Positions 7,779 to 62,999 of a stretch of 64,000 bases of DNA are shown here, one piece after another. The stretch spans positions 124,001 through 188,000 of the forward strand of contig NZ_MSDO01000004.1 in assembly GCF_001937195.1 (NCBI RefSeq), in the 5' to 3' direction. This DNA comes from Salinicola socius. Lineage in GTDB: Bacteria > Pseudomonadota > Gammaproteobacteria > Pseudomonadales > Halomonadaceae. Position 1 is the first letter of the stretch. The number at the start of each line of letters is the position of its first letter. The position numbers were made by a program, and so were the translations under genes. A model generated the notes under the pieces. The model made no database searches. It was not told the DNA's origin and saw only the letters and a list, made by a program, of their open reading frames with translations.

Positions 7779-9689
<1,911 letters not shown>

Positions 9690-48426: not shown

Positions 48427-50322
48427 ATGAATGAATTCTGTCCTCGGCGTCGAACGCTGATACGCGCGCTGGGTGCACTCGGCGTGCTGGGCGGCTGGAA
48501 TGCCTTGATGCCGCCGGCCGCCTTCGCGGCAGCGGGGAGCCGCTCGGCAACCCCCGGCCACATCGGGCGTCTGCAGAAAGGCCCTCCCCGAAACGTGACC
48601 TTCGATGCACACGTGCGTACCGATCGCTTCCATGTCGCCGGTCGTGGCGGCGCGGCGTACAGCGTCAACGACAGCGTGCCGTCGCCGCTCATCGAGTTGT
48701 GGGAAGGGCAAACCGCGCGTCTGCGCGTTCACAACCACCTGGATGTCCCCACGTCCCTGCACTGGCACGGCCTCCTGCTTCCCTTCACGATGGATGGCGT
48801 TCCCGGCGTCTCGTTCCCCGGTGTTTCTCCGGGCGAGACGTTCGAGGCCTATTTTCCGGTGCGCCAGAGCGGCACCTACTGGTATCACAGCCATTCGGGC
48901 GTGCAGGAACAGAAAGGCCTGACGGGACCGCTCGTCGTGCATTCCGCCGAACCGGATCCACATCCGGTGGCGTGTGATTTCGTCGTCATGCTCAACGACT
49001 GGACCTTCGACGATCCTCATCGGATCATGACCAAGCTCAAGGCACAGAGCGATTACTACAACCTCGACGAGCGGACCGTCGGTGATTTCTTCGAGGAAGT
49101 GGAGGCCAAGGGCTGGTCAGCGACGCTGCAGGAGCGCCGGATGTGGGGCGACATGCGCATGAGCCCGCGGGATATCGCCGATATCTCCGGGCTCACCTAC
49201 GACTACCTGCTCAACGGTCACCATTCGGCCACGCCATGGGAAGGGCTCTTCGCGCCGGGGGAGCGGGTTCGGCTGCGGTTCATCAACGCTTCCGCCATGA
49301 CCTATTTCAACGTCCGGATTCCAGGGTTGGCCATGACAGTGGTGGCCGCCGACGGACAACCGGTCGAGCCGGTCGAGATCGACGAATTCCAGATCGGCGT
49401 GGCCGAAACCTTCGACGTGATAGTGGCGCCGGAGGCCCGCCCCTACACGCTGATGTGCGAAAGCATGGATCGAACGGGATTCGCACTCGGCAGCCTGACA
49501 CCAAGTCTTGGCGAATTCGCGCCGGTGCCGTCGTTGCGCAAGCCGCCTCGTCGAACCATGGCCGACATGAGCATGGGAGCGATGGCCGGTATGGACACGG
49601 GTTCCATGGCTCGCATGAGCGGCACTCAGGGGGCGGACATGACGATGGGGGCGAGCGATATGGGCCAAATGCACGATGGTGGCATGGTCGACCACAGGGT
49701 GCCTCATGGCGCGTGGGATGCCGGCATCGGCATGAAGGAAGGCGCCATGGACGATGACGCCATGCAAGGAGGCTCCATGGCGGCCCCGATGGGGCACCAA
49801 AGCCACGGCGAGCGGAGCCAGGGGATGATGCACGCGGCCATGCGCGACCGGCTCGACGAGCCCGGCCTAGGTCTCGAGAATGTCGATCACCGTGTACTGC
49901 GCTACACACAGCTCAGACGCCCCGTGGCGATCGAGGATCAGCGGTCGCCGACCCGTACCGTGACCTTGCATCTTACCGGCAACATGGAGCGCTACATGTG
50001 GTCGTTCGATGGCAAGGCCTACAGCGAATCCGGGCCTATCGACTTCCACTATGGCGAGCGATTGCGGTTGGTGTTGATCAACAACACCATGATGGAGCAT
50101 CCGATCCACCTGCATGGCATGTTCATGGCACTCGAGAACGGACAAGGTGCACACCTGCCGCTCAAGCACACCATCAGCGTGCGACCGGCGGCGCGGGTAT
50201 CGCTGCTGGTGACCGCCGACGAGCCGGGACGCTGGGCCTTCCACTGCCACCTGCTTTACCACATGGAGATGGGCATGTTTCGGGTCGTTCGCGTCCTGGA
50301 CAAGGAGCACGCGCATGAATAA
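48427..50322 (+). CDS. copA: Copper-resistance multicopper oxidase CopA
   Basis: 631 residues. The N-terminus 'PRRRTLIRALGALGVLGG' is a Tat-type signal for export of the folded enzyme. Copper ligands appear in order as 'LHWHGL', 'YWYHSHSG', 'EHPIHLHGMF' and 'FHCHLLYHMEMGMF', so type 1, 2 and 3 sites are complete. Between ~375 and ~475 lies a Met/His-rich segment with many MxxM and MSMGAM patterns that should hold extra Cu(I). It oxidises Cu(I) in the periplasm. The stop overlaps copB, and a two-component system lies just upstream. Confidence 0.95.
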   Translation: MNEFCPRRRTLIRALGALGVLGGWNALMPPAAFAAAGSRSATPGHIGRLQKGPPRNVTFDAHVRTDRFHVAGRGGAAYSVNDSVPSPLIELWEGQTARLRVHNHLDVPTSLHWHGLLLPFTMDGVPGVSFPGVSPGETFEAYFPVRQSGTYWYHSHSGVQEQKGLTGPLVVHSAEPDPHPVACDFVVMLNDWTFDDPHRIMTKLKAQSDYYNLDERTVGDFFEEVEAKGWSATLQERRMWGDMRMSPRDIADISGLTYDYLLNGHHSATPWEGLFAPGERVRLRFINASAMTYFNVRIPGLAMTVVAADGQPVEPVEIDEFQIGVAETFDVIVAPEARPYTLMCESMDRTGFALGSLTPSLGEFAPVPSLRKPPRRTMADMSMGAMAGMDTGSMARMSGTQGADMTMGASDMGQMHDGGMVDHRVPHGAWDAGIGMKEGAMDDDAMQGGSMAAPMGHQSHGERSQGMMHAAMRDRLDEPGLGLENVDHRVLRYTQLRRPVAIEDQRSPTRTVTLHLTGNMERYMWSFDGKAYSESGPIDFHYGERLRLVLINNTMMEHPIHLHGMFMALENGQGAHLPLKHTISVRPAARVSLLVTADEPGRWAFHCHLLYHMEMGMFRVVRVLDKEHAHE

Positions 50323-51115
50323 CTCTCAATGCGCGCTCCAACCCCTATTGCTGGCCGCCATGATTTTGATGCCCGTCTCGGCGCAGGCGACCCCGCCCGG
50401 CAAGGCGTCTCTGGAGTCGGTCGTGCCGGCGGATCCCGACGCGCACAGCGGGGCGCCGGCCAGCTGGGCGCGGCCGGTTGTGGACGATGCCAACTACGCC
50501 AACTTCACTCTGGATCGACTGGAGTATCGTGGCTACGACGGTGGCGAAGGCTATCTATGGGAGGCCGAAGGCTGGTACGGCAACGATCGCGACAAGTTCT
50601 GGTGGAAGACCGAAGGGGAGGGTGACTGGCGCACCGGGCAGACGGAGAGTGCCGAATTCCAAGGCCTCTACGACCGCATGCTGGACGATTTCTGGGATCT
50701 ACAGGTGGGCTTGCGGCATGATGCCGACCCCCATCCCTCGCGCACCTACGGGGTTATTGGCCTTCAGGGGCTCGCGCCCTACGGCATCGACACCGAGGCG
50801 TCGCTGTTCGTCAGCGAGCGCGGCGATACCAGCGCGCGGCTCGAGTTCGAGCATGAGTGGCTGCTCACGCAGCGGTGGATCCTTTCACCGCGCTTCGAGA
50901 TCAACGCCTCCGCGGATCGTGTAGCCGATTACGAGCTCGGCAAGGGCATCACCAGCACCGAGGCCGGATTGCGTCTGAGCTATGACGTGACCCGCCAATT
51001 CTCGCCCTATGTCGGGATGAGCTGGGAAAACGTCCATGGAGAAACGCGGGATATGCGGACGCGAGAAGAGGCTGACCGGCTCTCTCTGGTGGTCGGCCTG
51101 AGCGCTTGGTACTGA
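50315..51115 (+). CDS. copB: Copper-resistance outer-membrane protein CopB
   Basis: 266 residues with a signal peptide ending 'VSAQA' (about residue 25). The mature part is the CopB beta-barrel: 'LDRLEYRGYDGGEGYLWEAE', 'WDLQVGLRHDADPHPSRTYG' and a C-terminal barrel strand ending in an aromatic residue. The N-terminal Met-rich stretch seen in the Pseudomonas protein is absent. It overlaps copA by 8 bases, forming the cop operon, and is thought to limit or store copper at the outer membrane. Confidence 0.93.
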   Translation: MNNSQCALQPLLLAAMILMPVSAQATPPGKASLESVVPADPDAHSGAPASWARPVVDDANYANFTLDRLEYRGYDGGEGYLWEAEGWYGNDRDKFWWKTEGEGDWRTGQTESAEFQGLYDRMLDDFWDLQVGLRHDADPHPSRTYGVIGLQGLAPYGIDTEASLFVSERGDTSARLEFEHEWLLTQRWILSPRFEINASADRVADYELGKGITSTEAGLRLSYDVTRQFSPYVGMSWENVHGETRDMRTREEADRLSLVVGLSAWY

Positions 51116-53857: not shown

Positions 53858-53971
53858 GATGTGCTCCCGATGAATTCCGAGTGAAGGGACTTCCACACCA
53901 TAGCAGGCATCGACGACACCGTGACGTGACGAGATCGTTACGCGGATCGTCATGACCCGACCGGCCATCCT

Positions 53972-53980
53972 TGGCATAAT
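53972..53980 (+). promoter_or_regulatory. Possible extended -10 promoter of the condensin-like operon
   Basis: TGGCATAAT fits the extended -10 form TGnTATAAT with one mismatch and lies 40 bases before the first gene's ATG in the 162-base gap between divergent genes. No convincing -35 box was found. Confidence 0.4.
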
Positions 53981-54019: not shown

Positions 54020-55480
54020 ATGACCGCCTGGAACAAGCTGCTGGTCGCGACGTCGCGGCTGCTGGATCTGCATGACAGCGCCCACGAGCCGGGTTCGCCC
54101 TTCGTTCAGGTAACGCAGGAGCAGCGCCGCGGCCTGCGTGACGGCTACTGGCTCGATCTGGGCTGCCTGCTGCTCGATTATCTGCTGGAGGTCGATTTCG
54201 CCACCAACAGCGCGTTCGTTACCCAGCGTCGCTGTCTTTCGCACCTGCGCGGGGACTATCCCGACCTCCCGGCCGATGATCTGAGCTTCGTCATCAACCT
54301 GCTCGCGACACCCAGCGAAATTCACTATCGCGAATGGCGGGCGAGTCCCGGCGACGCGGGGGAACCCGATGGCGACGAAACGTCGCCGGGCGTGCGCAGC
54401 GGGCGCAGCGGGCGCAGTACCAAGCGCACGGCGCTGATCGAGAAGCAGGGCCAGACCGGCCAGGTGCGCCTCACCCCGAGCGGTCGCCAGGCGGTGACGC
54501 TGGCGAGCCAGGTCGAGGACCTGCTCTATTCCGAATACGATGCGGCCAAGGTCATCGCGGCGCTTTCCCGCGGCGATTACGCCCGCGTGCCGGATATCAC
54601 CCAGCAGATCCTGATGGCGATCCGCGCGTTGACCCAGGAGCTGCGACGAGTCCGCGAGAACCCGACCCACGAAGGCAAGCTGGCCGCGCTGCTGGATAAC
54701 GAGCGCCACTACCACAACGCCCTGAGCACCATTCAGGGCACCCTGCTGAGCGCGCGTTCGCAGCTCTCGACACCGGCGCTGATCGCCAACTTCGATAGCT
54801 GGGCCGAGCGGCAGGAAGAGGAGTGGGATCTGCGCATGCTCTCCGCCACCATCGGGCGCGTGTTGAACGCCATCGAGAACCTGTCGCGGCGACTCTCCGA
54901 GCTGCTGTCGGACATCGCCGAAGGCCGAATCCAGTCGATGGGGGTGATCGACTTCGCCGGGCTGGCGCATCGGTTGCTCATCACCCCGCCGCCCGGACGT
55001 CTGCAGGACGCGGTGGTCGCGCGGATGATGCCGCTGGGCTCTCGCGTGGCGATGCCGCGCGTCGAGACGCTGCTGCCGCTGGTGGAGACCCGGCGTGCCG
55101 AGCGCAGCGGTGCGGCGCTGGTGTTCGACGAGGCCAGCGACAGGCCCAACGCCGATCCGTTGCTGGCGCGCTATCTCAAGGCGCGCGGCCCGGCCCTTCG
55201 CCAGCGACTGCGCCAGGCGCCGCTGTCGTTGCCCGATGCGCTCAGCGAAGGCTGGCACCACTTCGAGGCGGGTTCGGACGGGGCGAGCGCCGAGACCCTG
55301 GACTGCCTGCCCCAGCTTCTCAACACCTTCGTCGATACCCAACTGCTCGACGACCACCTGAGCGTCGGCATCGACGACACCCCATTCGTGATCGAGTTGC
55401 CCGATGGACGTTGCATCGAGGGCGCCGTCACGCCGTCGCTGCGCCTGCGTGAGACGGCAACAGAAGAACAGGAAGTCTGA
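54020..55480 (+). CDS. MukF/MksF-like kleisin subunit of a condensin-type complex
   Basis: 486 residues, against ~440 for MukF. The N-terminal ~170 residues look like winged-helix modules, ending 'GQVRLTPSGRQAVTLASQVE', comparable to 'YRLTPLG' in MukF. A helical middle (~175-320) has coiled-coil character, and the C-terminal third is a second globular part. Residues ~115-140 are a disordered Gly/Ser/Arg insert. In MukBEF and MksBEF the kleisin bridges the SMC heads. Assignment rests on the F-E-B gene order, architecture and the SMC-like third gene, not on a strong motif. Start 54020 follows TGGAG. Confidence 0.7.
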   Translation: MTAWNKLLVATSRLLDLHDSAHEPGSPFVQVTQEQRRGLRDGYWLDLGCLLLDYLLEVDFATNSAFVTQRRCLSHLRGDYPDLPADDLSFVINLLATPSEIHYREWRASPGDAGEPDGDETSPGVRSGRSGRSTKRTALIEKQGQTGQVRLTPSGRQAVTLASQVEDLLYSEYDAAKVIAALSRGDYARVPDITQQILMAIRALTQELRRVRENPTHEGKLAALLDNERHYHNALSTIQGTLLSARSQLSTPALIANFDSWAERQEEEWDLRMLSATIGRVLNAIENLSRRLSELLSDIAEGRIQSMGVIDFAGLAHRLLITPPPGRLQDAVVARMMPLGSRVAMPRVETLLPLVETRRAERSGAALVFDEASDRPNADPLLARYLKARGPALRQRLRQAPLSLPDALSEGWHHFEAGSDGASAETLDCLPQLLNTFVDTQLLDDHLSVGIDDTPFVIELPDGRCIEGAVTPSLRLRETATEEQEV

Positions 55481-55483
55481 TTT

Positions 55484-56401
55484 ATGAACATGATGGAAAT
55501 GGGCGAAGTCGTCGCCTACCTGCTGCGCTACCGCACCGCCGAACGTGTCCCCAGTGGCGGTCGCAAACGCCGCTCGGCGAGAGAAGGACAGCTCTCCGAG
55601 CGTGACGTCTGCGCACTGATCGACGACGCCCAGGAGAGCGAGCGCGAGGCGCTGCGAGACTTCCTCGCCGGGCAAGGGCTGCGCCTCAAGGCCTTCGAGT
55701 CCGGCGACTATCCCGGCATCGCGCCGGGATCTCGCTTCTTCGCGCTACTGCCGGATCCTGAGCTCGAACAGCCGCCGCTCTACACCCGCGAGCCGGTGTT
55801 CGAGGCGCTCAAGCTGCGCCAGGAGAGTCGGGCCGAACTGGCGCTGTGGTATCTGCAACTGTGGCTGTTGCTGCACACGCTGATCTACACCCGGCTGAAC
55901 CGGGCGCTGTCCGATGTCAGTCGCTACCAGGAGGCCACGTTCGCCACCCGCGAACTGGTCGAGCTGGTGCGGGAACAGCTGGAAACGCTGCGTGGCCTGG
56001 GCGACCGCGCGCCTCAGAATAGCCGCGTGCTGCTCGATGAGCGGGGCGAGGACATTCCCCGCCGAGTCAAGGCGTTCATCGACCTACTGATGCGTGCCGG
56101 CCATCTCGAGGCCGTCCGCGAGGCCGCCGACGAGGATGTCTGGCAGCAGACCCTGCTGGGGGCGCTGGAAGCCGAGCAGATCGGGGTCAACCATCTGACG
56201 CATCTGATCGAACTGACCGCCGGCGAATCCGAAACTAGCCTGGACGAGGCGGGCGAGATTGCCGTGGCGGCGGACGATGTCGCGGAAGGCAGCGATGCCG
56301 CCGGCGAGGACGATCCGGACGTCGCCGACATGTTCGACACCTCGACGGACGAGAACACCGACCGACCGACGACCCAGAATGCCGAGGGGGATCGCCGGTG
56401 A
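55484..56401 (+). CDS. MukE/MksE-like (KITE) subunit of a condensin-type complex
   Basis: 305 residues, longer than MukE (~234). The first ~235 residues are helical with winged-helix-like segments ('LSERDVCALIDDAQESEREA', 'DIPRRVKAFIDLLMRAGHL'); the last ~65 form a strongly acidic, disordered tail. KITE proteins bind the kleisin and DNA. The gene starts 4 bases after the kleisin gene and its stop overlaps the SMC gene's GTG start (GTGA). A JetB (DUF4194-like) Wadjet subunit is the alternative; context decides for a MukE/MksE-like role without a nuclease. Confidence 0.65.
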   Translation: MNMMEMGEVVAYLLRYRTAERVPSGGRKRRSAREGQLSERDVCALIDDAQESEREALRDFLAGQGLRLKAFESGDYPGIAPGSRFFALLPDPELEQPPLYTREPVFEALKLRQESRAELALWYLQLWLLLHTLIYTRLNRALSDVSRYQEATFATRELVELVREQLETLRGLGDRAPQNSRVLLDERGEDIPRRVKAFIDLLMRAGHLEAVREAADEDVWQQTLLGALEAEQIGVNHLTHLIELTAGESETSLDEAGEIAVAADDVAEGSDAAGEDDPDVADMFDTSTDENTDRPTTQNAEGDRR

Positions 56402-59400
56402 GCGTCATCAACCGTATCGAAATCGCCAATCTGCTCAACAAGCACGGTGATATCGCCTCGCCCTGGGAAGCCAAGATGCGCCATCTGCTGCTCGATCTGC
56501 GCGGGCAGTCGAGCGCGATCAGCATGGAGAACGGCTTCGGCAAGACCACCATGGCCGAAGCCCTGATCGGCATGCTCTCGCGAGATCGCCAACTGCTGAC
56601 CCGGACCCGGCGCAAGTGTTCGCCGTCCAAGGTCAACGGCGAAGGCCGCAGCTGGACGCATCTGCGCGTGGAATTCCGTGCCCAGGACAGCGCCAGCCAG
56701 CAGGACGACATGCTGGCGGTCGCTGGCGAAGAGGTCGCCGGCGAGACCTTCGTGTTCGGCATGTACGGCTACAGCGACGGCAGCGGTCTGGTGTTCTATC
56801 ACTACCCGGGCAAGCTCGCCGACGTGCCGGTGCACCACATCACTCGCGACGGCAAGCTGGCGCTTTACGCCAATGCCGATTTCCAGAGCACGATGCGGGC
56901 CCAGGGCGTGACGCGTGCCCACAACCGCGAGGAGTGGCTGGAAGCGGTCGGCGTGCATATCTCTCGCCGCGAACTGGCGCAGATGGCGGCATTCCAGAAA
57001 GAGGGCGGCGCCGACAAGAGCCAGATCTTCAACGCCATCAAGCCGCGGGCCGGCGAGAAGGCCGATCAGGCGTTTTTCTACGAAGTGCTGGCCCCGCAGA
57101 TACTCTCCGGAGCGACGCGCGGCGAGACCGACGAGGAAGAAGAGCTGATCGAGGACGTGATCCTCAACTCCGGCACGCGTATTACCGAACTGCGACACCG
57201 GCTGGCGGAAGCCGCCAGCGATCAACAGCGCGCCGACGAGAAAGTCGAACGGCTGGCCACGCTGAACGAGGAGGGAGAAGGGCTGCTCGAGGCGCGCCGC
57301 CAACTGACCGCGCTCGACGCGTCGCTGCTCGAGGCCGAACGTCTGCTGGGCGGGCAGGCGCTGGCGCCACTGCCCGGTTTGCCCGGCGCCGATGGTGACG
57401 AGAAGGGTCGCGGGCTTGCCAAGGAGGTTGCCGACAGCGTGATCGGCTTCGCCTGGGTCACCGGCGATACCGAACGCCCACGGGTCTCGACCTGGCTGTT
57501 GGCGAAACTCTCGCGCCAGTCCGAACGCAATGTGCGTCTTGCGCTGTCCGAGCGCGGCGCGCGGGTCGACACGCATCGGCGCCTGATTCATCTACCGGCG
57601 GCGGCCTGGGTCAGCGCCCGGGATATCGGTCATGTGTCGTTCGATCAGGCCCGCGCCTGGCTGGCGGATAGCCACGCGTTCCACGACGATGCCGCGCGCT
57701 ACCGGGCGCTCGGTGTGCTCGATGATGGTGCCGAGGCCTTCGAGGCGCTGGATGGCAACCGGTTCCGCGAAGAGGTGATCGCCGATCGCGAGTATCGACG
57801 CTCGCTGCGCCTCGATGCCGAGCAGCTGGACGAGGAAGTCGAGCGTCTCGAGCAGGAGCGCGAACAGCTCGAATCACGCCAGCGCGACTTCATCGACAAC
57901 CAGAGCGTCTACACCCAGGCGCTGGCGGAGGGGCTATTCACCGAAGCCGAGCTCGAAGCACCGGAAGCGACCCGAGAGGCGGCTCAGAGTCGGCTCGGTG
58001 AAGCACGCAAGGCGCATGCCGATCATCTCGGCCGCATGGGCGAGCTCAAGCAGCCCGCGCAGTGGTATGACGAATTTCTCCTCGAACATCCCGATGCCTC
58101 GCCCGAGGAGCTGTTGGCGACCAAGGGCGAGCAGCAGGAGATGCTGGAGGCCCAGCTCGGCGACTGGGATGCCCAGGCCAGCACGCTGGAGCGTCAACGC
58201 GAAACGACCAGAGAAGCGCTGCAGGCACGCCGCGAGCAGCGTCAGCGCCTGGAGGGCGAGCTGGCACCCTTGGCCGCGGGACGCGACGCGTGGCAAGCGT
58301 TTGCCGCACAGTGGCCCGAACATGCCGCGGTGGGCTTCTGGAGCGAGCGCAAGAGCGCGCTGGCCGAGCTGGAACAGGCGCTGGCCGAGGTCCGGCGGGC
58401 GCAGAATGATGCCAAGGCGCGCCTGGACCGACTGTCGCCGCTCAGGGATGCGGCCGAACGTTATCGTCACTGGCACGGCGAGGCGTCGCCGGTGCATCTG
58501 CGCGAAACGCTCTACCGCCAGTCCCGGGAAGCACAGGACCGTCTTCATCAGCTCACACAGCAGGGCCAGCAGCTCGAGGTGCTCGAGCAGGCATTGAGCG
58601 CATTTCGCGAGACCAGCGAGCAGCCGCCCTCGGCCTGGCTCAAAGACGCCAAACTGCGCTACCCGCGGCTGCTGCGGGAGCGCGAAACCCTGGCCGGGTC
58701 CATCGAGGCGCGAGAAGGCTATCTCGACAGCTTGAGTGGCGACCCGCTGGCCCGCCTGGCCTCCGAGGCCGAAGCCCAGCATTGGCTGGAGGCGCGCGAG
58801 ATTGCCTTCCGGCCGTTGCATGAGGTGCTCGCCGCGCTCGAAGCCGACGATGAACAGCGTCGAGGCTGGCTGGCGCAGTCCGCCGGCCAGCTGTTTGCCC
58901 CCGTGGTCGAGGGCGAAGACGACGCCCGGGAGGCCTCGCAGTGCCTGGTCGATGCCGGCTGTGGCGTTCCGGTGCTAGAGGCCAACCGACTGCGGGCGAC
59001 ACTGGCGCGGGGCGAGCTGCCGCTGGGGGCAGTGCAGGGCGTCGAGACGCTGGCGGTCAAGGCCGCGCTGGATCCCGCTTACCTCACGGCCCTTCGCGAA
59101 GAGACCCAGCAGCGTCTTGCGGTGGACCGCGAACGCCAGCAGGCACTCCAGGAAGAGATCGAGCGTCTCGATCCTCACGGTGAGCGCTTCCGCCAAGCGC
59201 TGCAGGCGGACGAGGCGCTGACGCAGGAGGTCGAACTGCAGCTGGCGACGCTGGCGGAACAGCGCGAGAGCGCCGAAGCCGAGCGGGACGCGCTCGAGCC
59301 GCGCCTGGGCGAAGCCGCGATGAAGTCGATCGACGATTTTCAGCGCTTTCTCGAGGAGGGCGGCGAGCCGGCACTGCAGTCCGCTGCCGAGGCGGCACAG

Positions 59401-61326
59401 AGCGCCGCCGAGCGCGTCGAGTCGCTGAGTCCGCAGCGCGAGCAGGCCGCGCGTGAGCTGGAAACCCATGGCGAGCTCTGGCTGAGCGCCGAGCGATTTG
59501 CCACGGCTGGCGGTGTCGAACGGCTCGGGGAGATCGATGCCAGTCTCTCCGCGCTGGCGGAGGAGCTGGCCGAACATGACGAGCGCTTCGCCGAGATCCT
59601 GCTTCAAATCGAGGAATTGAACGCGCGTCGCGAGACGTGTCGCGATCAATTGCGTCATCTATTCGCCGACGGCGAGCGTGAACGACTGCGGCGGCTGGCG
59701 GCTTTCGTTGCCGAAGGTGGACCGCACTTCATGCGCGATGCCGACGCTCGCGAGGCCGCACTGGCGGAGGCGCTGGCGCACGCCAGCCGGCGTGCCGATT
59801 TCGATTTCGACCGGATTCGGGCGTTTCTGCAGGTGCGAGACGATCAGGGCGGCAACCGTACGCTGGAGCGGGACATCGGTCGCCTGAAACAGTCGCTCAA
59901 GGAGATGCGTGAACGGCGCAAGGCCAGCGCTCGCGAGCAGAGCGAGCTCGAGAGCCGGCTGGCGCGCCATCAGCAGGCGTTGACGGTGGTCGACCAGTTG
60001 GCAGTGGCGTGGCTGGAGGTGCTGCGTCAATTGCCGGAGGGCTGGTTCGAGCGGGCCACGGCGGATGCGAAGGCTCGCTGGCCGGCGAGCGGCGAAGAAA
60101 CCGCGCACCTCGATGCCGCGATGGACGAGTGGCGGCGCTGGGCGCTGGCCTCGCTCGATGGCGCCGGCGATACGCCAGGCAAGAACAGGGACGCCGATGT
60201 CTTCGACCTGGAAGCTTTCGAGACCTGCCAGCAGACACTGCTCGATGGGCTTGGCAGTCTCAATCTGGGCGAGCGCGCGCGCAATCGCGAGCGCCAGGCA
60301 CGGGACGTGACGTCACGGGAAAAGGCGCTGGCGGATTCGCTGGAATCGGCCAGCGCCAGTCGGCTGTTCAACGAGACTGAACGGGCTCGGCTCGGTACGC
60401 TGGAAGGCGTCAGTCATGCCGCCCTGGAATCGCTTCGCGGCCTACACCGCCAACTGGGCGGCCAGCTCGACGAGCACCGTCAGCGCGTGGCGCGACTGCA
60501 TGCCTCGCGGGAGCAGATCGAAGACACGCTGGTCGAGCGCCTCAGCTCGATCATCATCGATGCGGCCGGCAATCTGGAGATCCTCAAGCGGGTGGCAAAA
60601 CGCACCAGCGACGGGGGGGCATACTTCGAGGTCAAGGCCGACCTGATCGCCGACGAGTCGGTGCGAGAGCTGATCCAGCAGCTGCTGGCGGATATCGATG
60701 CGCATCTCGCGGTGCAGCGACGCCGGCTCGAGCAGGCCAGCGACGGCAGTCAGCCCAAGGGAGGGCGCGACGATGAGTTGACCCGCCAGATCCGTCGACG
60801 CATCTACCGTGGCCTGTTCTGCGACGTCACCATCCGGCTCAAGCACGACGCGATTCGCCCGCACGGCCGACTGTTCTCGCTCAACGAGGACATGTCGGAA
60901 GGTCAGCGCGAAGCCGTCTCGCTGATGTGGCTGGTGAAACTGTCCGAGTTCGCCATCGAGCGCGAGTTGCGGGAACTGCCCGGCAGCCACAAGCGCCGGG
61001 CGCGCGCCAGCCGCGAGAGCGTCATCCTGCTCGACGGCCTGTTCTCGAAGCTATCGCACCGGCGGTTGATCCAGGACTCGCTGGAATCGCTGCGCAACAC
61101 GCGCGGGCGTTTCCAGATGATCGGCCTGATCCACAACCCCAACTACGAGAACGATCCGAGCATATTCCCGACCTATCTGGTCGGCAGCGTGATCGGTGGC
61201 CAGCAGGGCCAAGGGGGGCATGTCATCGTACGCGAAGGGCAGGCCGTCGCGCCGGAAGAGACCGGCCGCGGTAGCGGGGAGGCGAGCCTGTTCGGCATTC
61301 ACGTGACGCCCGCGCCGGTGGCGTGA
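56398..61326 (+). CDS. MukB/MksB-like SMC ATPase, very large, with atypical ATPase motifs
   Basis: 1642 residues (E. coli MukB has 1486). The N-terminal head carries a P-loop M43-E-N-G-F-G-K-T50 in place of G-x-N-G-x-G-K-S. About 1000 residues of Glu/Gln/Arg/Leu-rich coiled coil, with at least one break, lead to the C-terminal head with signature 'MSEGQREA' (1499-1506) and Walker B 'VILLDG' (D1546), where G1547 stands at the usual catalytic Glu. SMC-kleisin complexes extrude DNA loops and organise chromosomes. The start is GTG overlapping the previous stop. A terminator follows at once; there is no MksG/JetD-type nuclease gene. Confidence 0.75.
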   Translation: MSVINRIEIANLLNKHGDIASPWEAKMRHLLLDLRGQSSAISMENGFGKTTMAEALIGMLSRDRQLLTRTRRKCSPSKVNGEGRSWTHLRVEFRAQDSASQQDDMLAVAGEEVAGETFVFGMYGYSDGSGLVFYHYPGKLADVPVHHITRDGKLALYANADFQSTMRAQGVTRAHNREEWLEAVGVHISRRELAQMAAFQKEGGADKSQIFNAIKPRAGEKADQAFFYEVLAPQILSGATRGETDEEEELIEDVILNSGTRITELRHRLAEAASDQQRADEKVERLATLNEEGEGLLEARRQLTALDASLLEAERLLGGQALAPLPGLPGADGDEKGRGLAKEVADSVIGFAWVTGDTERPRVSTWLLAKLSRQSERNVRLALSERGARVDTHRRLIHLPAAAWVSARDIGHVSFDQARAWLADSHAFHDDAARYRALGVLDDGAEAFEALDGNRFREEVIADREYRRSLRLDAEQLDEEVERLEQEREQLESRQRDFIDNQSVYTQALAEGLFTEAELEAPEATREAAQSRLGEARKAHADHLGRMGELKQPAQWYDEFLLEHPDASPEELLATKGEQQEMLEAQLGDWDAQASTLERQRETTREALQARREQRQRLEGELAPLAAGRDAWQAFAAQWPEHAAVGFWSERKSALAELEQALAEVRRAQNDAKARLDRLSPLRDAAERYRHWHGEASPVHLRETLYRQSREAQDRLHQLTQQGQQLEVLEQALSAFRETSEQPPSAWLKDAKLRYPRLLRERETLAGSIEAREGYLDSLSGDPLARLASEAEAQHWLEAREIAFRPLHEVLAALEADDEQRRGWLAQSAGQLFAPVVEGEDDAREASQCLVDAGCGVPVLEANRLRATLARGELPLGAVQGVETLAVKAALDPAYLTALREETQQRLAVDRERQQALQEEIERLDPHGERFRQALQADEALTQEVELQLATLAEQRESAEAERDALEPRLGEAAMKSIDDFQRFLEEGGEPALQSAAEAAQSAAERVESLSPQREQAARELETHGELWLSAERFATAGGVERLGEIDASLSALAEELAEHDERFAEILLQIEELNARRETCRDQLRHLFADGERERLRRLAAFVAEGGPHFMRDADAREAALAEALAHASRRADFDFDRIRAFLQVRDDQGGNRTLERDIGRLKQSLKEMRERRKASAREQSELESRLARHQQALTVVDQLAVAWLEVLRQLPEGWFERATADAKARWPASGEETAHLDAAMDEWRRWALASLDGAGDTPGKNRDADVFDLEAFETCQQTLLDGLGSLNLGERARNRERQARDVTSREKALADSLESASASRLFNETERARLGTLEGVSHAALESLRGLHRQLGGQLDEHRQRVARLHASREQIEDTLVERLSSIIIDAAGNLEILKRVAKRTSDGGAYFEVKADLIADESVRELIQQLLADIDAHLAVQRRRLEQASDGSQPKGGRDDELTRQIRRRIYRGLFCDVTIRLKHDAIRPHGRLFSLNEDMSEGQREAVSLMWLVKLSEFAIERELRELPGSHKRRARASRESVILLDGLFSKLSHRRLIQDSLESLRNTRGRFQMIGLIHNPNYENDPSIFPTYLVGSVIGGQQGQGGHVIVREGQAVAPEETGRGSGEASLFGIHVTPAPVA

Positions 61327-61352: not shown

Positions 61353-61382
61353 AAGGGGCCTGCCATGATGGCAGGCCCCTTT
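61353..61382. terminator. Bidirectional terminator between the SMC-like gene and cfa
   Basis: AAGGGGCCTGCCA-TGA-TGGCAGGCCCCTT is a perfect 13-bp stem followed by TCTTTT on the plus strand and a C/T-rich stretch on the minus strand. It ends the condensin-like operon 27 bases after its last gene. Confidence 0.88.
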
Positions 61383-61434
61383 CTTTTCCACTCGAGTGGC
61401 CCTCTGCGACACTGGTTTCGGCTCGTGGCTCGGG

Positions 61435-62586
61435 CTAGCGCGGCGAATCGTAACGGCCACCCCGGCCGTTGGAATAGACCACCTGCCACAGCTGGAGATC
61501 TCTTGCCCGGAAGGCCCCCGCGCAGGAGCCGAGATAGTAGAGGAACATCCGCTTGATGCGTTCATCGTAGCGGTCGGCGATTTCGTGCCAACGGGCGAGC
61601 AGATTGTCCTGCCACGCCATCAGCGTGGTGTCGTAGTCGGCACCGAAGTTCTGCCAGTCTTCCATCACCAGCTTGCCCTCGCTGGCGTCGCCGATCTGCT
61701 GGATCGACGGCAGAATGCCGTTGGGGAAGATGTACTTGTTGATCCAGGGGTCGATGCTGACTTCGTTGGTATTGGAACCGATGGTGTGCAGCACGAACAG
61801 GCCGCCGGGTTTCAACAGGCGCTTGATGGTATCGAAGTAGGTGGCGTAGTTGCGTTGGCCGACGTGCTCGAACATGCCGATCGAGACGATACGGTCGAAC
61901 TCGCCGGTGAGCTCGCGATAGTCCTCGAGCAGGATCTCGACCGGCAGGCCGGCGCAGCGCTCGCGGCCCAGTTTCGCCTGCTCTTCGGAGATGGTGATGC
62001 CGGTCACTTCGACGCCGTACTGGCGAGCCGCATGTTCGGCAAAACTGGCCCAGCCACAGCCGATATCCAGCACCTTCATGCCTGGCTCGAGATCGAGCTT
62101 GCGGCAGGCCAGATCGAGCTTGGCGATCTGCGCTTCATGGAGCGTCTGCGCCTCCTTCCAGTAGCCGCAGGAGTAGCACAGCGTCTCGTCGAGCATCCGG
62201 GTGAAAAGGTCGTTGCCGAAATCGTAGTGCTCTTTGCCGACGATGTAGGCTCGCGCCTTGCTCTGCAGATTGACGAAGCTCGACTGCAGTTTGTAGACCA
62301 CGCGTTCGGTGGTGGTGTGTGCCACGCCGCCGAGGCCGTGACGCAACAGGCGATGGATCATCTCGTCGATGCGATCGCACTCCCACCATCCGTCCATGTA
62401 GGCTTCGCCAAAACCGATGGAGCCTTGGCGGATGACTCGCGAGAACAGATCGGGATGATGAACGCGAATATCCCACGGCTGGTTACCATTGAGGGTAACG
62501 CCGGAGCCTTGCAGCAGTTTTTCCAGGGTTTGACGAGCTCGGGTGTCGGGCAGCGCGACGGGAGCGATAGGCGTATTACTGGTCAT
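61435..62586 (-). CDS. cfa: Cyclopropane-fatty-acyl-phospholipid synthase
   Basis: 383 residues, as E. coli Cfa (382). 'MKVLDIGCGWASFAEHAARQ' binds SAM, 'YSCGYW' and 'EHVGQRNYATYFDTI' are family marks, and 'GSIGFGEAYMDGWWECDRID' is the N-terminal lipid-binding part. It adds a methylene bridge to unsaturated membrane lipids, usually on entry into stationary phase or under acid or osmotic stress. AGGAAA lies before the ATG; the frame continues upstream without similarity. Bases 62743-62999 upstream hold no gene I can support. Confidence 0.95.
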   Translation of the reverse strand: MTSNTPIAPVALPDTRARQTLEKLLQGSGVTLNGNQPWDIRVHHPDLFSRVIRQGSIGFGEAYMDGWWECDRIDEMIHRLLRHGLGGVAHTTTERVVYKLQSSFVNLQSKARAYIVGKEHYDFGNDLFTRMLDETLCYSCGYWKEAQTLHEAQIAKLDLACRKLDLEPGMKVLDIGCGWASFAEHAARQYGVEVTGITISEEQAKLGRERCAGLPVEILLEDYRELTGEFDRIVSIGMFEHVGQRNYATYFDTIKRLLKPGGLFVLHTIGSNTNEVSIDPWINKYIFPNGILPSIQQIGDASEGKLVMEDWQNFGADYDTTLMAWQDNLLARWHEIADRYDERIKRMFLYYLGSCAGAFRARDLQLWQVVYSNGRGGRYDSPR

Positions 62587-62999
62587 GGTTTTTCCTGGCG
62601 AGGGGCGCAGCCCGTTCCCCGGCCGCCCGATCGCATCGCTCCGCTCGAGCGGCAGAAAATAACCTGTTGACTTGCGGGTTCGACCGCGATGACGCGTTGG
62701 TTCGGTCATTTTCCACTCGCTTGGATCGGTACGGAGGATCAAGCTATGGCGGCGGTGACGTGGTGCGCCACGGTCCCTGTTTCCTACTGGTTAGCCTTGT
62801 GGAGATGCTAGCCGCAAATGCCATGTTGGCTTTATTTACATTGCGTGCTAACGGCTTTCCCGTCAATAATCCTAGCGCTATTCTCTCAATAGTCCAGCCA
62901 TGCACGGCTTTTTACGCCGGGAAATCGACAAGCCTGATTCGAATGAGGCTGAATGAGGGCCGATCTCAGCAATCCAGCAGTCATTCAAGGAGGCAGACC

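Follow-up and report, generated by a model that had tools for sequence, protein, structure and literature searches.

The operon F-E-B of the halophilic bacterium Salinicola socius lies at positions 54,020 to 61,326 of the window, a 64,000-nucleotide stretch of contig NZ_MSDO01000004.1 (positions 124,001 to 188,000) in an assembly of 4.17 Mb and 156 contigs. Its three genes encode a kleisin-like, a KITE-like and an SMC-like protein. On balance, F-E-B is probably a former Wadjet-like SMC complex that survives without its nuclease, most plausibly as a condensin-like DNA-folding complex, a function that we infer from sequence. Some relatives carry a jetD gene directly after B and the S. socius genome has none, so we take the system to exist in two forms, of three and of four genes, with F-E-B as the former. 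The features of the operon are the following:

53952..53980, plus strand: promoter-like site 5' of F by consensus match only, ATGACC-17-CATAAT, with agreement at 9 of 12 positions.
54020..55480, plus strand: F, kleisin-like subunit of 486 residues with a MukF-like predicted fold.
55484..56401, plus strand: E, KITE-like subunit of 305 residues, predicted tandem winged-helix with a variable acidic tail at about residues 241-305.
56398..61326, plus strand: B, SMC-like ATPase of 1642 residues with a GTG start, conserved ends and a less conserved middle.
56530..56550, plus strand: Walker A motif NGFGKTT, B residues 45-51.
60892..60915, plus strand: ABC signature-like motif MSEGQREA, B residues 1499-1506.
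61018..61056, plus strand: Walker B-like segment SVILLDGLFSKLS, B residues 1541-1553, in which D1546-G1547 replaces the canonical Asp-Glu.
61355..61387, plus strand: intrinsic terminator at the end of the operon; its 11-bp GC-rich hairpin is perfect and is accompanied by a T tract.

As a preliminary description of this DNA had it, the three genes are tightly coupled: their open reading frames have the lengths given there, with 3 nt between the F stop and the E start and a 4-nt overlap of E and B. The perfect terminator and the convergent cfa that it named are also in place. The hairpin stands about 30 nt past the B stop, with a folding energy of -29.7 kcal/mol (z -6.25); a simple terminator scanner listed none in the region, this hairpin included. 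It occupies the place where jetD stands in some relatives. There is no fourth gene between B and the minus-strand open reading frame at 61435-62742, which contains what we take, from its sequence, to be cfa. Two promoter-like sites were observed in the region, against a mean of 0.6 in shuffled sequence. The F-E-B grouping lies far above chance: F and E precede B in the relatives whose loci extend far enough, and the ratio of nonsynonymous to synonymous substitution rates (dN/dS) is about 0.1.

Named contigs hold at least 71 B loci, mostly from Halomonadaceae and also from Oceanospirillum, Endozoicomonas and Terasakiispira; counts of named loci refer to 69 of them, with L070 (B broken) and L094 (a fragment) dropped. 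An intact JetD-like gene stands right after B in 22 of the 69, its mechanically chosen start falling between 25 nt before and 6 nt after the end of the B gene, and the distant members L140 and L141 are both F-E-B-D operons. In the sample of relatives, B was found in 24 of 58 genomes and a JetD-like gene at its stop in 3 of the 24; the Pfam JetD_C search gave matches directly 3' of B in three relatives. PF09983 exceeds its cut-off in all three relatives' D proteins scanned, and the PADLOC JetD1 model PDLC00527 matches 18 of 18. In the 18 D proteins aligned (of 22), the Toprim IEN (E205-N206) and D270-x-D272 are invariant. The S. socius genome has no JetD homologue at E <= 0.001, either with the Pfam model or with the family's own D alignment. 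An A-B-C-D order with JetD is found in part of the family, and not at the S. socius locus or in its genome. The preliminary description was right that no nuclease gene accompanies this operon, and mistaken in setting it apart from Wadjet systems on that ground. Among the loci without D, two have little sequence after B, namely L078 (205 nt) and L046 (629 nt). Two strains of S. salarius differ at this place: L069 has a complete jetD, whereas in L067 the gene is missing and the shared flanks enclose unrelated DNA of another length. In a comparison of alignment rows, sites fixed in D-bearing but loose in D-less members numbered 0 in F, 2 in E and 21 in B; we claim no D-contact signature from them, because many of the sites split Salinicola-sized groups of rows.

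A tree was built from 72 B proteins, of which 24 come with D and 48 lack it. On it, 14 changes of D state are required, and starred branches force 13 of these; shuffled D labels require 20.2 on average, so the D state also follows ancestry. The tree was made quickly and contains long branches that meet, and its change counts cannot tell gain from loss. If the common ancestor had D and no lineage won it back, the tree calls for 27 losses; treating the L069 copy as a re-gain lowers this to 25, and both figures depend on weak branches. Remnants of jetD are more direct. In L059, the first codons of jetD run, across a deletion, into sequence from beyond the gene; in L071, both ends of the gene remain, by DNA comparison as well as by profile; L068, the sister of L059, keeps a start-like remnant and may share the same deletion event. 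For the DNA comparison, 9 named D-less loci out of 47 were set against 7 with D, and the profile scan covered all. On these remnants, loss of jetD is shown in two separate clades, L059/L068 and L071, and loss is likely the direction overall. Salinicola itself yielded no jetD remnant; the absence of jetD there is best read as loss.

It is improbable that jetD was a late arrival, gained several times by an ancestral three-gene, MksBEF-like condensin. The blindness of the change counts leaves room for such gains, and so do the jetD of L069, which groups with Chromohalobacter (support 78) and does not follow its B, and the 8 of 21 D-tree splits absent from the B tree. However, D is present in both distant members and in 2 of the 4 members of the Endozoicomonas-containing clade, the other 13 of the 21 splits are common to both trees, and rooting on the distant pair places the Endozoicomonas D genes outside those of Halomonadaceae. 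The remnants in L059, L068 and L071 also lie beside relatives with intact jetD. Within a history of loss, S. salarius DSM 18044 may have regained its D.

B occurs in 18 of 18 Salinicola genomes including that of S. socius (one copy broken), in 6 of 19 genomes of other Halomonadaceae genera and in none of 21 from the rest of the order. An even sample of the class gave B in 3 of 369 genomes (S. socius and the two distant members); one of the phylum gave 5 of 398, of which 3 are sound and 2, short and marginal (E 3.5e-4 and 8.6e-4), were discounted. No relative of the family was found among 40 pattern matches in viral contigs, and none in phages. F and E precede B in that order in the loci that reach far enough upstream; an F match is absent solely in L021, L035 and L094, all cut off upstream. 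Flanking genes recur: 38 of the 69 loci (12 with D, 26 without) have tyrB or phhB on the upstream side and cfa or ykoF on the downstream side, and 59 share at least one flank, with neither at the remaining 10 (Oceanospirillum, Halotalea, the Endozoicomonas clade and two others). Given these recurrent neighbours, F-E-B in Halomonadaceae looks like one old chromosomal locus. The S. socius genome also contains SMC_N matches, including both ends of a 1249-residue frame, and a ScpA match. Housekeeping Smc-ScpAB is therefore likely present beside F-E-B, the 1249-residue frame being taken as Smc.

Selection was measured by the Nei-Gojobori method on pairwise alignments of chosen pairs, some with a synonymous rate (dS) above 1. 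In 13 D-less pairs dN/dS is 0.054-0.163 for F, 0.030-0.207 for E and 0.058-0.147 for B. In 8 D-bearing pairs it is 0.048-0.353 for F, 0.047-0.232 for E, 0.051-0.384 for B and 0.203-0.343 for D; these ranges keep the unusually high pair L051/L058 (B 0.384), and the pair L079/L084 is nearly without synonymous change. From the low values in D-less pairs, F, E and B are judged to be maintained by purifying selection without the nuclease. It is thus most improbable that F-E-B is a decaying leftover, being lost after its nuclease, even if B lies in several pieces in S. tamaricis (L070) and no B match was obtained in 13 of the 19 Halomonadaceae genomes from other genera. The D-less values are not above those of D-bearing pairs, Walker A is intact in 88 of 89 B rows and B is present in all sampled genomes of the genus, and for Salinicola this account is largely refuted.

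Several single copies deserve mention. In S. tamaricis (L070, taken as G013; G013:C1:3258212-3263097), B is split into three frame pieces, one with an internal stop; this is either a pseudogene or a sequencing error. L094 comes from a contig filed as an uncultured Chloroflexi metagenome-assembled genome; it carries the end of B (92% identity) and the first 130 residues of a jetD frame identical to the one in S. salarius DSM 18044, and the contig is probably mis-binned. The assembly MFB021 has two contigs (L034, L035) whose B proteins are identical, and one of the contigs breaks off upstream within E; this reflects either a duplicated locus or an assembly artefact. On the Pseudomonas aeruginosa plasmid pPUV-6 (L159), two overlapping hypothetical genes, one matching the C-terminal head of B, are followed 3' by a gene annotated with a Wadjet JetD domain, and a Tn3-family transposase and mercury genes adjoin. 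This is apparently a partial copy of the F-E-B family on a conjugative plasmid.

B has the general SMC layout, with Walker A at one conserved end and the signature and Walker B at the other, except that the catalytic Glu is absent. Its middle is less conserved, with a partly conserved central segment. Across 8 diverse members N45, G46, G48, K49 and T50 of Walker A, S1500, G1502, Q1503 and A1506 of the signature-like motif, and D1546 and G1547 are invariant. MENGFGKTT is read in all B rows but one. The Walker B-like segment reads VILLDGLFSKLS, and DGLFS is found in 89 of 89 rows (69 distinct). The distant L140 and L141 likewise have Gly at the position of the catalytic Glu. This replacement of Glu by Gly throughout the family is a feature absent from the preliminary description. 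At the same position, 4 of 4 type III-like JetC proteins (L125, L160, L162 and L163) have Asn; the Glu is kept in the MukB, JetC1 and C126 references and, by eye, in L119. Lack of the Walker B Glu is thus common to the family and to the four type III-like JetC read, with Gly in one and Asn in the other. A conserved SMC-like machine can be without the canonical residue, which bears on ATP use in such systems. By analogy, the Asp-Gly motif is predicted to make ATP turnover slow in all members, those with D included, unless another residue takes over catalysis. There are two precedents: the Walker B Glu of Lamassu LmuB is generally replaced by Gln (PMC10586767), and ABC transporters with degenerate sites offer a case of lowered ATP turnover (PMC7544095).

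Halomonas beimenensis (L075) is the sole case in the 89 rows of a Walker A Lys changed to Arg (GFGRTT), and the C-terminal part of its jetD is no longer alignable; this copy is possibly non-functional. L075 and three further loci (L052, L058 and L060) repeat in tandem, at about 8970-9560, the 3' end of E and the first ~50 codons of B, through the P-loop. The units are of 188 bp, with 2-3 copies seen; L052 has one spacing of 176 bp, interrupted by Ns. All carriers have jetD and belong to a single clade of Halomonas (organivorans, maura, nitroreducens, beimenensis), and every copy retains the ATGA stop-start overlap. Short N-terminal peptides of B could be made ahead of the full protein in these strains.

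Of the kleisin, KITE and SMC roles assigned in the preliminary description, that of B stands by its motifs, and those of the other two have moderate support from predicted folds. F is a predicted MukF-like kleisin: MukF appears nearest to its model, and JetA is not among the best 50 fold matches. E is a predicted JetB-like KITE, with a model that covers JetB across two domains. The tail of E is acidic as described, with 21 Asp and Glu against 3 Lys and Arg in the last 65 residues; since E ranges from 256 to 378 residues across homologues and the tail varies in length and composition, we rejected it as a functional mark. All three subunits are indeed longer than MukF, MukE and MukB of E. coli (440, 234 and 1486 residues, from coordinates), but size does not distinguish them, given type III-like JetC proteins of 1441-1524 residues.

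Pfam, NCBIfam and PADLOC assigned no family to F, E or B. B gave a weak match to LmuB (E 3.8e-4, residues 436-735, outside both heads) and none to the PADLOC JetC models at E <= 1, JetC3 included; for comparison, the SMC of L119, recognised by PADLOC as a MukB-like JetC, matches a JetC1 model with E 5.5e-109. Wadjet type I models recognise none of the three proteins. F and E have no match to PADLOC type III, and the sole type III match is the P-loop of one distant B (E 0.0054). Over 22 B rows, Pfam returned weak ABC_tran matches in 8 (best 0.007) and AAA_23 matches in 2 (best 1.3e-4); its matches for the 22-row F and E sets (down to 0.0012 and 0.0094) are scattered and unrelated, and were taken as chance. 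Sequence and profile searches of the PDB gave no assignment, with matches that look like coiled coil or chance, nor did hhalign of F and E against MukF, JetA, MukE and JetB. The JetC3 model PDLC00583 matched 18 of 321 genomes, always within model positions 744-1163, which we took to be coiled coil, and was not used. PF04310 (MukB N-terminal) has no match at E <= 0.001 in the S. socius genome. None of F, E and B was assigned by these searches to a characterised MukBEF or MksBEF family. We found no publication on the F-E-B family in a literature search that covered few subscription papers.

Profile alignments of 22 rows each for F, E and B and of 18 of 22 proteins for D were compared by hhalign with small reference sets of our own choosing, in which PADLOC types L125 as III and L119, L121 and L126 as I; L160, L162 and L163, tblastn relatives of L125 on plasmids, were treated as type III-like. 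Once L140 and L141 are added, the N-terminal head of B aligns over 185 columns with the JetC proteins of the type III-like set at a probability of 96.5 (E 8.8e-10); the other values are 81.5 with JetC1, 59.7 with MukB, 57.5 and 40.8 with two other type I sets and 20.3 with L125 alone. The narrower 22-row alignment gives 90.6 with JetC1, over 27 P-loop columns, and 9.2 with L125. As controls, accepted N-head sets find each other at 95.6 (MukB-JetC1), 97-98 (within type I) and 55-85 (type III against others). For the C-terminal head of B no set gives a significant match (0.2 with type III, although the expected motifs align), where accepted pairs range from 0.3 to 96. F reaches 12.3 with the type III kleisin set (F3) over 225 columns and E 0.2 with the type III KITE set (E3). 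Control profiles seldom detect one another in such comparisons: no kleisin set recognises that of another family (best 2.8), and KITE sets give 36-57 within type I and fail elsewhere. For D the probabilities are 96.0 (JetD1), 92.0 (type III-like set) and 45.4 (D of L125 alone). Counting the four-gene relatives with jetD after B, we class the F-E-B family as a divergent Wadjet (JetABCD) branch with a type III-like SMC N-head, and not as a member of type III. The preliminary description had proposed divergence from MukBEF/MksBEF and JetABC, which holds, and restriction to this lineage, which does not, as relatives occur beyond it.

With Wadjet type III the family shares a large SMC (references 1441-1524 residues), the lack of the Walker B Glu and the kleisin-KITE-SMC-nuclease order; Walker A is NGGGK[ST] in the three type III-like references read from their start. 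It differs in its DG Walker B, its SEGQ-type signature and the frequent absence of jetD. The likeness to type I lies in the predicted KITE of E, which covers JetB, and in the relatives' nuclease, best with the JetD1 model, whereas JetC1 references have 1085-1217 residues and a DE Walker B. MukBEF and MksBEF share the three-gene F-E-B order without nuclease, and MukF appears nearest to the predicted F model; in contrast, PF04310 finds nothing in the S. socius genome, the MukB N-head match covers 38 columns around the P-loop, the Walker B differs and F-E-B coexists with ScpA. Lamassu LmuB is, like B, an SMC/Rad50-like ATPase with a replaced Walker B Glu, in its case a defence protein (PMC10586767), but of ~650 residues and with other partners, and the match of B to it lies outside both heads.

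We propose that B would form the ATPase arms of a ring-shaped SMC complex, with F as kleisin and E as KITE, descended from a divergent gammaproteobacterial Wadjet-like F-E-B-D system whose ancestral task may have been anti-plasmid defence. The Salinicola lineage would have lost JetD and kept the motor of three proteins. Most likely the complex is a ring, dimeric or a dimer of dimers, that binds DNA between the B heads and the kleisin and brings segments together; it would still bind ATP, close around DNA and probably gather it into loops. In D-bearing relatives JetD would cut the trapped circular DNA, as proposed for type I Wadjet (PMC10586767). In Salinicola, without JetD, only trapping and folding would remain, and F-E-B may be kept beside Smc-ScpAB as an organiser of chromosomal, or a silencer of extrachromosomal, DNA.

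F-E-B without D might instead still serve defence, entrapping, compacting or silencing plasmid or phage DNA uncut, or using a nuclease in trans; we think this rather unlikely. Its kinship with Wadjet through jetD-bearing relatives and their JetD1 matches would fit, as would the patchy jetD state, even between two S. salarius strains. The G405 locus lies amid genes that we read, from their sequences, as SbcCD-like, Fic-like, nucleotidyltransferase-like and reverse-transcriptase-like. Eukaryotic Smc5/6, proposed to act on DNA in this manner, is described as compacting circular DNA (PMC10586767). Against it stand the recurrent chromosomal neighbours, the presence of B throughout the genus and the lack of any JetD homologue in the S. 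socius genome within the search given above. We favour a resident role for F-E-B, because the locus is recurrent, its presence genus-wide and its genes under purifying selection.

MukBEF and MksBEF have been proposed as Wadjet descendants, MksBEF through nuclease loss (PMC10586767), and F-E-B without D likely represents a comparable evolutionary outcome. At a shared locus, jetD is present in some related species and absent from others, and even two strains of one species disagree, so that the proposed path from Wadjet to MksBEF becomes testable with matched D-plus and D-minus complexes. More tentatively, a Wadjet-type defence complex could be caught here in mid-conversion, many times over within one family, to a nuclease-free condensin; this would be a second, independent route to a MukBEF/MksBEF-like organiser, with a Walker B that lacks Glu. 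With the cutter gone in this lineage and the probable ring preserved, the operon is well suited to studying how defence may give way to chromosome organisation.

Elsewhere in the window, at 48427-51115, a multicopper-oxidase-like gene with a Met-rich segment is followed by a CopB-like gene; from their sequences we take them to be a probable copper-resistance pair.

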